DNA of 64,000 nt from NCBI RefSeq assembly GCF_900107195.1, contig NZ_FNPB01000001.1, positions 434,001 to 498,000 of the forward strand. The letters run 5' to 3'. The stretch's first letter is position 1, and every line of letters begins with the position of its first letter. Source of the DNA: Halobellus clavatus. GTDB taxonomy: Archaea > Halobacteriota > Halobacteria > Halobacteriales > Haloferacaceae. Shown in pieces: positions 6,202 through 9,410 of the stretch. A program made the translations under genes and the position numbers. Under the pieces are notes generated by a model, which made no database searches, was not told the DNA's origin, and was given only the letters and a program-made list of their open reading frames with translations.

Positions 6202-6648
6202 TCAGTCCTCAGACAGTCGTGCACGGGCGATAGCGGCTTCAGATACACGTGTCTCCGAGAGGACAGCCTCTCGTAGGTCCGCCCCGCTGAGATCAGCCCC
6301 GCGGAGATCCGCCCGCGAAAGGTCCGCACCGTACAGGTCTGCGTCCGAGAGGTCAGCACCACGAAGATCAGCCCCCGAGAGGTCAGTCCGACGCAGATTG
6401 AGCCCTGCTACGGTAATCCCAAAGAGGGTCGCTGCAGCGAGGTCGGCGTCCCGCAAGTCCGCCCGCGAGAGCTGAGCCTCGCGGAGGTCCGCTCCGGAGA
6501 GATCGGCGCGTTTCAGGTCCGCGTCCGAGAGCGTCGCACGGAACAGGTCGGCCTCGGAGAGGTCGGCGTCGCGGAGGTCAGCGTTGGGCCGGATAGCGTC
6601 GGCTGTAACCGCATCGTCGTTGGGGATACGGTACGGGCCATCGCTCAT
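6202..6648 (-). CDS. Pentapeptide-repeat protein
   Basis: A 148-residue protein composed almost entirely of tandem A(D/N)L-x-x pentapeptides, interrupted once by AAATLFGITVAGLNL near the middle. About 24 repeats would build a right-handed quadrilateral beta-helix. I start it at the ATG at 6648 (MSDGPYRIPNDDAV); an ATG three codons upstream at 6657 is also possible. Pentapeptide proteins include DNA mimics that protect gyrase (Qnr/MfpA) and many of unknown role. The strongly acidic faces here would suit DNA mimicry, but that is inference. No membrane or channel domain is attached. Confidence 0.8.
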   Translation of the reverse strand: MSDGPYRIPNDDAVTADAIRPNADLRDADLSEADLFRATLSDADLKRADLSGADLREAQLSRADLRDADLAAATLFGITVAGLNLRRTDLSGADLRGADLSDADLYGADLSRADLRGADLSGADLREAVLSETRVSEAAIARARLSED

Positions 6649-6657
6649 ACCCGGCAT

Positions 6658-6973
6658 TACGGTGGAACGAAGTAAGTATGCTCTCCCGCTTGTCGCCGCC
6701 GGAGACTCGGATCGTGGGTGGCTGGAGAGCCGTGATCGAGTCCTGACGGAGTCCACGCGAGCAGCGCGAGCGTGGGCCCGTCGAGACGTGAACGGAATGT
6801 GTGGACTGACTCGTCAGCAACGGCTGGCGAGTCAGTTCTCGAATGAAGTGAGCGTCCTGACGGAGATTTGAACTCACTCGCTCCTGCCAGTCGCTCGCTG
6901 CTCAAATCTCCTCTTTGGCGTTCTGCGAGACGTAGACTCCTCGCTGCGCTCGTCGTGTAGCGTCTCGCAGAAA
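6658..6973. other. Non-coding stretch with tRNA-Arg 3' end copies
   Basis: No gene is supported here. The stretch holds an exact 23-bp copy of the tRNA-Arg 3' end (6853-6875), a shorter 12-bp copy (6740-6751), an inverted repeat CTGACTCG/CGAGTCAG around 6808-6837, and a long-armed inverted repeat next to the tRNA (6921-6932 with 6961-6972, perfect 12-nt arms TTCTGCGAGACG/CGTCTCGCAGAA). This looks like the scar of past recombination at the tRNA gene. Confidence 0.6.
6853..6875 (-). repeat. Direct repeat of tRNA-Arg 3' end (att-like scar)
   Basis: These 23 bases are identical to 6974-6996, the last 23 bases of the tRNA-Arg gene including the discriminator position; bases on either side differ. 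Integrases that target tRNA genes leave exactly this kind of duplication. Only 98 bp separate the copies and no integrase is present, so any element has been lost. Confidence 0.65.
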
Positions 6974-7046
6974 CGTCCTGACGGAGATTTGAACTCCGGT
7001 CCCTGGCTCCGCAAGCCAAGAGGATAGTCCACTACCCTATCAGGAC
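6974..7046 (-). tRNA. tRNA-Arg (anticodon GCG)
   Basis: Read on the minus strand, the gene starts GTCCTGA and ends TCAGGAC plus discriminator G, a perfect 7-bp acceptor stem. The anticodon arm is TTGGC-TTGCGGA-GCCAG with anticodon GCG in the loop, decoding CGC/CGU arginine codons. The T arm contains GTTCAAATC. CCA is not encoded, consistent with the cca gene at 14106-15482. No intron is seen. Confidence 0.93.
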
Positions 7047-7185
7047 TCACTCTCCCGTACTGCGGGTTCACTTATCAGGGTTACGATGCGGACAGGCCGC
7101 GACACCGACACGCACGGGACCCGAAGCACAAGGGGGTGTTTGAGCCTCCGGTAGCGCTTTTTGTACGAGCGTCGTCGGCATACAT

Positions 7186-7674
7186 ATGCGCCGCCGAGCG
7201 GTCCTCACGGGCGTCGCCGTCGGACTCACCTCGATACTGGCCGGGTGTACCGGGAGTTCCGGCAGCGGGGCAGACGCGACAGACGCCCCGACGACGACCG
7301 ATACGACCGACGAGACGGACGAGACCGCGGGTCTCGTGAGCGGGAGCCTCATCCCGCGCGAGGAGTGCCCGAATCCCGGTGAGGCGACAGTCGATCTCGG
7401 AACCGGATCGGCCACGGTCCGTGGCTGTGTCGTCGGCAAGAACGGGTGCACGGTCCCGCGGTTGCGGGACGTGACCCTCGATGCCGAAACCGACGTGGCG
7501 ACCGTCACCGTGGCCAGCATCGAAGAGCGCGAGGATGACGAGGCCTGCACCGAGGCGCTCGTGAACCTCGGTTACCAGGCCCGAGTCGACACCGGGGGCG
7601 CGACACTGACTGGACTCGAAGTCGTCCACGACGACGTGGAGGGGCGACGCGTCGTCGTAGACGTGACGCGGTGA
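7186..7674 (+). CDS. Secreted lipoprotein of unknown function
   Basis: A 162-residue protein starting MRRRAVLTGVAVGLTSILAGC: a twin-arginine-like N-region, hydrophobic core and LAGC lipobox with C21 as the lipidation site. A Ser/Thr/Asp-rich linker follows to about residue 50, then a compact domain (about 55-162) with four cysteines (EECPNP, RGCVVG, NGCTVP, EACTEA) that could form two disulfides outside the cell. Haloarchaeal lipoproteins with this layout are often Tat exported. The domain is not recognised, and the gene appears to be transcribed alone. Confidence 0.75.
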   Translation: MRRRAVLTGVAVGLTSILAGCTGSSGSGADATDAPTTTDTTDETDETAGLVSGSLIPREECPNPGEATVDLGTGSATVRGCVVGKNGCTVPRLRDVTLDAETDVATVTVASIEEREDDEACTEALVNLGYQARVDTGGATLTGLEVVHDDVEGRRVVVDVTR

Positions 7675-7805
7675 CTGGAAGCCGGAGGTTCATATCCGAG
7701 GACGGGACCACAGCCGTCGTGTCTCGACGACGAACTGAGGGCCGAACCGCCGGACAGCGGGGTGAGACCGCCCGTATCGTAGACAGCGCGACCAGCGACA
7801 AGACA

Positions 7806-7893
7806 ACGCTTAAGCGGCGGCCTGCCTTGGCTGTGGATATGCCTGTGGCCGTATTCGCTCGACCCGCCGGGTTCTCATTCGCACCCGCGGGTC
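7806..7893 (+). promoter_or_regulatory. rpa2 promoter and structured leader
   Basis: A TATA-like GCTTAAGC is centred near 7811, 28 bases before an ATG at 7839, the spacing of a leaderless transcript. Between that ATG and the rpa2 start lies a GC-rich inverted repeat, GACCCGCCGGGT (7861-7872) with ACCCGCGGGTC (7883-7893), pairing with one bulged base. The hairpin sits inside the leader ORF and could control rpa2 translation or transcription. Confidence 0.5.
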
Positions 7894-7913
7894 ACCGGGG
7901 GGGTGTCGCGTAG
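7839..7913 (+). CDS. Possible leaderless 24-residue leader peptide before rpa2
   Basis: An ORF of 24 codons runs from the ATG at 7839, predicted to be at or very near the transcript 5' end, and stops with TAG directly against the rpa2 ATG (TAGATG). The peptide MPVAVFARPAGFSFAPAGHR is not acidic like host proteins and contains the codons that form the GC-rich hairpin. Direct abutment of stop and start suggests termination-reinitiation coupling. It could instead be non-coding leader; conservation would decide. Confidence 0.4.
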   Translation: MPVAVFARPAGFSFAPAGHRGGVA

Positions 7914-9410
7914 ATGGGCGCCATCGAGGAGGTGTACGAGGACCTCGAGACCGACGTGGACTTCGAGGAGTTCGAGGCCGCCGTCGAGGACAAAGTCGAA
8001 CAGATGGGGGGCCTCGCCGACGAGGAGACCGCCGCGATGCTCATCGCCCACGAACTCCGCGACGAGGAAGTCGAGGGAATCGCCGACATCGCGCCGGGGA
8101 TGGACGACGTGAAGTTCCTCGCGAAGGTGATGCAGATCGGGGAACTGCGGACGTTCGACCGCGACGGCGAGGACGACGACGGACGGGTCGTGAACGTCGA
8201 GGTCGCCGACGAGTCGGGGCGCATCCGGATCGCGATGTGGGACGATATGGCCGAAGACGCTGTCGAGCGCCTGGAGGCCGGACAAGTGCTCCGGGTCGCC
8301 GGCCGCCCGAAAGACGGCTACAACGGCGTCGAGGTCGACGTCGACAAGGTCGAACCCGCGCCGGACGCCGAGGTCGACGTGGACACCCAAGACACCTACC
8401 GGGTCGAGGATCTCGCGCTCGGACTCTCGGACGTGAACCTCGTCGGGCGCGTCCTCAGCACCGACAGCGTGCGGACGTTCGACCGCGACGACGGCTCCGA
8501 GGGCCGCGTGTCGAACCTGACGCTCGGCGATCCGACCGGCCGGATCCGGGTGACGCTGTGGGACGAGAAGGCCGATCTCGCGACCGAGTTCGAGTCCGGC
8601 GAGTCCGTCGAGGTCGTCGACGGCTACGTCCGCGAGCGAGACGGGACCCTCGAACTCCACGTCGGGAACCGAGGCGCGGTCGACGCGGTGGACGAAGACG
8701 TCGAGTACGTTCCCGAGACGACCGACATCGGAGCGCTCGAACTGGGCGAGACCGCCGACATCGCCGGCGGCGTCATCGAGACCGACCCCAAGCGGACGTT
8801 CGACCGCGACGACGGCTCCGAGGGACAGGTCAGAAACGTCAGGATCAAAGACGAGACGGGGGACATCCGGGTCGCGCTGTGGGGCGACAAGGCCGATCTC
8901 GACGTCGACCTCGCGGACTACGTCGTCGTCACCGACGCCGAGATCCAAGACGGCTGGCAGGACGACCTCGAGGCCTCCGCCGGGTGGCAATCGGCGGTCA
9001 GCGTGATGGACGACGCGCCCGCCGGCGGGCCGGACGCTGGCGGCGAAGCGAGCACCGGCGACGCCCAGTCGACCGGACTGGGTGCGTTCGCGGACGGGGA
9101 CGACCCCGAAGACGCCGGAGCGAAATCGAGCGCCGAGGGGTCGGGCGCGGACGGGAGTGCCAGATCCGGCGGGAGCGCGGCCGCAGCGGTGACAGAGCGC
9201 GCAGAGCACGAGGGCACCGACGGGGAACCGGCCACGGAGACGTTCACGGGCACCGTCGTTCAGGCGGGCAGTCCGGTCGTCCTCGACGACGGGACCGAGA
9301 CCCGGAGCGTCGAGACCGACGAGTCGCTGCGGCTGGGCGAGGAAGTGACCGTCAGCGGGCCTGTCGACGACGGAACCATCAGCGCCACCGACGTCGAGCG
9401 GGCGAACTGA
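7914..9410 (+). CDS. rpa2: Single-stranded DNA-binding protein Rpa2/RpaC, triple OB fold
   Basis: A 498-residue replication protein A homologue. There is a conserved acidic N-terminal helical domain (about 1-60) and three OB folds (about 65-150, 170-250 and 265-340). Each fold is marked by the strand pair pattern V-N-x-D-x-G-x-IR-x-W: SGRIRIAMWDD, TGRIRVTLWDEKA and TGDIRVALWGDKA. A low-complexity Gly/Ser/Glu linker follows, then a C-terminal small beta domain from about residue 425 (FTGTVVQAGSPVVLDDGTET). The triple-OB haloarchaeal RPA is the one reported essential in Haloferax volcanii and active in replication and repair. There is no zinc finger, which separates it from the Rpa1/Rpa3 type. 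The histone gene follows about 110 bases on. Confidence 0.88.
   Translation: MGAIEEVYEDLETDVDFEEFEAAVEDKVEQMGGLADEETAAMLIAHELRDEEVEGIADIAPGMDDVKFLAKVMQIGELRTFDRDGEDDDGRVVNVEVADESGRIRIAMWDDMAEDAVERLEAGQVLRVAGRPKDGYNGVEVDVDKVEPAPDAEVDVDTQDTYRVEDLALGLSDVNLVGRVLSTDSVRTFDRDDGSEGRVSNLTLGDPTGRIRVTLWDEKADLATEFESGESVEVVDGYVRERDGTLELHVGNRGAVDAVDEDVEYVPETTDIGALELGETADIAGGVIETDPKRTFDRDDGSEGQVRNVRIKDETGDIRVALWGDKADLDVDLADYVVVTDAEIQDGWQDDLEASAGWQSAVSVMDDAPAGGPDAGGEASTGDAQSTGLGAFADGDDPEDAGAKSSAEGSGADGSARSGGSAAAAVTERAEHEGTDGEPATETFTGTVVQAGSPVVLDDGTETRSVETDESLRLGEEVTVSGPVDDGTISATDVERAN

Follow-up and report, generated by a model that had tools for sequence, protein, structure and literature searches.

A predicted leaderless upstream reading frame abutting rpa2 in Halobellus clavatus, with counterparts in other Haloferacaceae

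The rpa2 locus

The window analyzed here is a 64-kb stretch (64,000 nucleotides) of the Halobellus clavatus genome, and all coordinates refer to it. One of its genes encodes an OB-fold ssDNA-binding protein that scores 780 bits (cut-off 575) against the corresponding archaeal family. Judging from this family membership and from the label given in an earlier note on the sequence, the gene is the likely counterpart of H. volcanii RPA2 (HVO_0519), which is stated to be essential (PMC6237752). The features at the locus are:

7186-7674 (+): lipoprotein-like ORF
7800-7815 (+): predicted rpa2 promoter core, BRE/TATA-like, AAGACAACGCTTAAGC, a motif common to 128 training leaders
7839-7913 (+): predicted leaderless upstream ORF (uORF), 24 sense codons MPVAVFARPAGFSFAPAGHRGGVA, from ATG 7839-7841 to TAG 7911-7913
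7861-7893 (+): inverted repeat, GACCCGC (7861-7867) and GCGGGTC (7887-7893), judged incidental
7899-7905 (+): SD-like GGGGGTG in the 3' end of the uORF, 8 nt 5' of the rpa2 ATG
7911-7916 (+): stop-start junction TAG/ATG, gap 0, the uORF TAG abutting the rpa2 ATG at 7914
7914-9410 (+): rpa2, 498-aa OB-fold ssDNA-binding protein, NF005551/PRK07211
9522-9950 (+): archaeal histone, NF043032, PF00808
9956-10972 (+): histone-deacetylase-like gene, PF00850

The histone gene and the histone-deacetylase-like gene after it, both 3' of rpa2, give the locus a chromatin-flavoured setting. On the 5' side, the lipoprotein-like ORF has a LAGC lipobox recognized by eye and matches nothing in Pfam or NCBIfam. 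In those relatives whose upstream frames were inspected, rpa2 is likewise preceded by a similar ORF. An Rfam search of positions 6500-8500 (E up to 1) gave no match to the leader, which is thus not a known structured RNA leader; the matches in that interval were a tRNA (6974-7046, minus strand) and a sub-threshold match overlapping it. Searched against its own genome, the leader matches itself alone.

The promoter was scored with a PWM trained on 128 leaders in which the motif lies 33-37 nt 5' of leaderless rpa2 starts. The window core scores 22.4 (training mean 21.9), and the best score 24-44 nt 5' of rpa2 is -24.9, so that no second promoter is seen there. The core includes a TATA-like CTTAAG at 7809-7814, and the uORF ATG lies 30 nt from its C (7809), a spacing identical in sequence comparison to that of leaderless rpa2 orthologues. 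The earlier note had described a 24-codon ORF ending in TAG directly before the rpa2 ATG, and its coordinates were confirmed in the sequence; its prediction that the transcript begins at the uORF ATG is consistent with the leaderless distance between that ATG and the promoter.

The gap of 0 between the uORF stop and rpa2 falls within the arrangement of coupled haloarchaeal pairs, which overlap or lie within about 10 nt. When the body of the window uORF was shuffled, an early stop appeared in 14% of cases, so an open frame alone is unremarkable; a stop at the rpa2 start appeared in 1.1%. A script that searched both strands of the window for the whole arrangement (a TATA element, an ATG at 30, 33 or 36 nt, a uORF of at least 8 codons, a stop at -10 to +1 and a GC3-rich ORF of at least 100 codons) returned one case, the rpa2 uORF.

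Leaders of rpa2 in related archaea

Starts of rpa2 were taken from 80 GTDB-220 contigs and from GTDB-232 genomes. The GTDB-232 set comprises 105 leaders from 104 genomes (one with two copies), after removal of six rows: L159, L164, L170 and L171, whose starts were not alignable, and L112 and L113, each a second piece or paralogue. The spacing between promoter core and rpa2 is bimodal. The core lies 33-42 nt 5' of rpa2 in 57 of the 105 leaders, making rpa2 itself leaderless by prediction, and 74-274 nt 5' of it in 45; three are unassigned. Of the 80 GTDB-220 leaders, whose genomes are partly repeated in the other set, 72 belong to the short class and 6 to the long class, with 2 left unassigned.

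In each of the 45 long leaders an ATG lies 29-36 nt from the core, matching the placement of the rpa2 start in the short class. In every case this ATG opens an ORF of 15-82 codons, and the ORF stops between 10 nt inside rpa2 and 1 nt before its start. The junctions vary in frame and in stop codon across lineages (TAG/ATG in 16, TGATG in 15, TGA-G-ATG in 5, a 10-nt overlap in 4, ATGA in 3 and TAA/ATG in 2), and the uORFs are distributed as follows:

Halobellus type: 9 of the 105-leader set, 24-28 codons, TAG/ATG
Halogeometricum type: 7 of the 105-leader set, 24-28 codons, TAG/ATG
Haloquadratum-like: 2 leaders, 27 codons, TAA/ATG
Genus g43 (by inference, probably Haloferax): 15 of 15 leaders, 19 codons, TGATG
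Genus g10: 5 of 5 leaders, 17 codons, TGA-G-ATG
Overlap type: three Halobellus-like leaders and one g20 leader, stop 10 nt inside rpa2
Haloquadratum walsbyi-like: 3 leaders, 76-82 codons, ATGA

Length differences are multiples of three both among the nine TAG-type Halobellus relatives (3 and 6 nt) and in the Haloquadratum group, whose uORFs measure 80, 80 and 74 codons from a shared ATG. In the Haloquadratum walsbyi-like leader L105, ATA stands in place of the first of the two ATGs, and the frame has 80 codons.

A second promoter adjoining rpa2 was considered and rejected, since none was seen in the PWM scan. In the uORF leaders, the best score 24-44 nt 5' of rpa2 was 2.8, compared with a training minimum of 10.4; the scan took in 200 nt of each of the three Haloquadratum leaders, and their distant promoter lay beyond it.

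Stop placement was compared with dinucleotide-preserving shuffles of the uORF bodies, in which stops at -10 to +1 were counted. Their frequency was 0.011 for the window, 0.018 for Halogeometricum, 0.061 for the Haloquadratum-like type, 0.142 for g43 and 0.015 for g10. For two overlap types it was 0.81 and 0.84; these 4 of the 45 stops arise nearly by default, since they are provided by the sequence GGTGTGA or GGCGTGA of rpa2 itself. With the overlap types omitted and Halobellus and Halogeometricum counted once, the combined chance is about 1.4e-6, assuming independent lineages, an assumption that holds only partly because most uORF lineages fall in one clade.

Three sets of leaders merit separate mention. 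The metagenome-like genome G019 carries rpa2 twice (L104 and L148), once with a uORF and once as a leaderless gene, and is probably a mixed assembly. A record titled Halobellus captivus (L006) has a leaderless leader, but its rpa2 falls inside the Halorubrum group; the record is possibly misnamed or the carrier of a transferred gene. Natrinema-type leaders, such as L041, have an in-frame ATG 15 nt 5' of the annotated-style rpa2 start (ATGCACGAGCATAGAATGAGC) and 18 nt from the TATA core.

SD-like motifs

All 45 uORF leaders contain, within their final 18 nt, an SD-like motif from a list drawn up after inspection of the leaders, compared with 1 of 60 others. In all 45 it lies inside the upstream frame, a placement that is common but not essential in coupled pairs. 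Duplex energies, calculated with an assumed anti-SD, average -12.0 kcal/mol for the uORF leaders and -2.5 kcal/mol for the others; all 45 uORF leaders reach -6 or lower, as do 7 of the 60 others. An SSU rRNA was sought in the Halobellus clavatus assembly and none was found. SD motifs in 5'-UTRs are reported to be non-functional in H. volcanii (PMC3986360), whereas they contribute to reinitiation in most of the overlapping pairs tested there, to an extent that varies by pair (PMC6728339). The motif in the rpa2 leaders thus fits reinitiation better than a de novo start.

RNA structure

The inverted repeat within the window uORF was pointed out in the earlier note, which proposed an autoregulatory leader and suggested aligning rpa2 leaders for conservation of the ORF and the hairpin. 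The alignment found that the position of the ORF is conserved, that the hairpin is not, and that the peptide is barely so. It remains plausible that uORF translation sets rpa2 output, given the architecture in 45 of 45 long leaders. The hairpin part of the proposal is not supported, nor is Rpa2 autoregulation through it. Folding of the predicted transcript (7839-7913) gives z = -0.37, with 66 of 200 shuffles folding equally well, and that of 7839-7933 gives z = +0.45 (129 of 200); the full interval of the earlier note gives z = -2.2, but includes promoter bases 5' of the predicted transcript start. Among nine aligned Halobellus leaders, the arms are kept clearly in the closest relative, L082, alone. 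With folding no better than in shuffles and arms poorly conserved, the hairpin was rejected as a conserved element. The combination of a conserved peptide or codon run with a switchable RNA structure, which would mark a leader peptide or attenuator, was not found.

A different hairpin, absent from the window, holds the rpa2 start in g43. This structure, GGTGACGCC-TGAT-GGGCGTCATC, was found in 10 of 10 tested leaders (15 fetched), with z from -2.5 to -5.0 against shuffled uORF ends; L132 and L137 preserve it by means of G-U pairing. In L121, L124, L129 and others it has 9-10 bp, and its loop contains or adjoins the rpa2 start codon. The g43 hairpin may make coupling stricter. With this lineage excepted, transcript folding energies of the relatives are no better than those of shuffles, and among 27 tested non-g43 leaders a start-site hairpin was not significant in 25 (P 0.03 in L089 and L131).

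Evolutionary origin

A quick tree was made from 117 Rpa2 proteins, with L104 and L111 omitted as short and L132-L191 omitted for lack of a full-length protein. On this tree, at least two changes are required to explain the uORF state. The main uORF group contains Halobellus, Haloquadratum, Halogeometricum and g43, and g10 branches within a set of leaderless relatives; L100 sits on a long branch and its position is uncertain. The g10 uORF and the leaderless rpa2 of g18, its neighbour in the tree, both begin CACGATTATGGGTGT, and this shared beginning suggests that the old leaderless start codon was kept as the g10 uORF start. A mobile or repeated origin of the insert was rejected: beyond short weak hits, the g10 leader matches rpa2 leaders only, and the window leader has no match but itself.

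It may be, although we put this forward only tentatively, that a route from leaderless to coupled translation was taken at least twice in the Haloferacaceae, with the old start kept for a disposable uORF and a new, SD-assisted start gained downstream. Rpa2 would then be made solely via leaderless initiation and reinitiation, gated by conditions affecting either step.

Coupling of the uORF to rpa2

Leaderless initiation is the commonest start mode in haloarchaea. Leaderless transcripts make up 72% of the protein-coding transcripts of H. volcanii (PMC4983044). In the same organism, reinitiation was strict in nine of nine tested pairs (PMC6728339) and was strongly reduced at spacings of 13-23 nt, approaching zero by 22-23 nt (PMC10666635); the uORF stops at -10 to +1 fall in the range reported there to support termination-reinitiation. 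Taken together with the reported disuse of SD motifs at 5'-UTRs, these findings are best fitted by a leaderless uORF start that delivers ribosomes to rpa2 by termination-reinitiation, and we regard this as the probable explanation. The comparison of leaders contributes the placement of the uORF start and stop codons, the accompanying SD motif, the weak constraint on the peptide and the lack of a second promoter near rpa2. The 5' end of the rpa2 mRNA would coincide with the uORF ATG (7839) or lie no more than a few bases from it, and ribosomes would start on this leaderless ATG, translate about 24 codons, terminate at the TAG (7911-7913) and reinitiate at the abutting rpa2 ATG, presumably assisted by the GGGGGTG in the uORF end. 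The uORF would thus be a delivery track with a dispensable peptide, its start the retained leaderless start codon of rpa2, whose own start would have shifted 35 to 240 nt downstream. An effect on the level of Rpa2 may follow.

An ordinary 5'-UTR, with an incidental uORF and a de novo rpa2 start via the SD-like motif, is unlikely. The motif 8 nt 5' of rpa2 is a good one, and openness of the uORF is in itself expected in GC-rich DNA; in the GC-rich genomes compared, the frame is frequently open far upstream. Against this reading stand the finding that all 45 long leaders combine a leaderless-position ATG with a stop at the rpa2 start, the reported disuse of SD motifs at H. volcanii 5'-UTRs (PMC3986360) and the overlapping pairs that showed no de novo start when tested (PMC6728339). 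More doubtful still is a regulatory leader in which Rpa2 or uORF translation alters the hairpin, with feedback on rpa2. The window does contain a GC arm pair of 7 bp, and all ten tested g43 leaders have their different start-site hairpin, but the window hairpin is at shuffle level and not conserved, and 25 of 27 tested leaders outside g43 lack a significant one.

A functional micropeptide, made from the uORF alongside Rpa2, also seems improbable. Some motifs recur, for example ART.GF..........GGVA in Halobellus and Halogeometricum, and the 76-82 codon Haloquadratum uORF retains its N- and C-terminal ends. However, pN/pS, calculated for six groups and a single pair, is 0.61-1.46, the three codon positions show similar variation with third positions not favoured, the Haloquadratum pair gives 0.61 in frame against 0.72-0.73 in shifted frames, and peptides of 15-82 codons are unrelated between lineages; constraint on the peptide thus appears weak at most. 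Least credible, and rejected, is the reading in which the uORF forms the 3' end of a longer genuine gene that shares an operon with rpa2. The 80-aa ORF 7671-7913 does begin at a GTGA overlap with the lipoprotein-like gene, but it has no Pfam match, the promoter intervenes, and in relatives in-frame stops occur 9 nt (L108, L110) or 33 nt (L099, L105, L106) 5' of the uORF ATG or, in others, at scattered upstream positions. Readthrough to an N-extended Rpa2 was rejected; it would be in frame for the TAG/ATG and TAA/ATG types only and is not a shared mechanism, because TGATG, ATGA and TGA-G-ATG place rpa2 in another frame.

Relation to known systems

The component parts of the preferred reading are already known. 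The overlapping H. volcanii pairs (Huber 2019, PMC6728339; 2023, PMC10666635) come from the same class of organisms, and their stops and starts likewise touch or overlap, with SD-like motifs in the upstream frame. Their upstream frame is described as an annotated operon gene, whereas the rpa2 uORF has 15-82 codons, little constraint and a position at the predicted transcript start, and coupling was measured in those pairs (PMC6728339) but is inferred at rpa2. ORFs of 15-31 aa are reported in long H. volcanii leaders (Babski 2016, PMC4983044, Table 2), but these concern 5'-UTRs of 150-250 nt only, and rpa2 (HVO_0519) is absent from the 16 cases listed. The E. coli 5'-terminal uAUG ORFs (Beck 2016, PMC4965119) also combine a 5'-end AUG with a main gene that has an SD, and some affect the downstream gene. 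They differ in being bacterial, with a canonical SD start at the main gene, and the abstract mentions neither stop-start abutment nor conservation. Delivery of a ribosome by a short coupled uORF, rather than production of a peptide, is proposed in a review (PMC12548453) as an idea with bacterial examples, the available text naming no archaeal case. No earlier report of the rpa2 leader uORF was found in the part of the literature searched, and prior detection of the peptide is possible.

The rpa2 gene offers a natural comparative experiment, in which closely related archaea differ in whether one essential gene is preceded by a uORF. If the proposed coupling is correct, haloarchaea use leaderless uORFs as delivery devices, which would account for SD motifs in the leaders of organisms reported not to use them at 5'-UTRs, and constructs carrying the rpa2 upstream region would also carry a translated frame.
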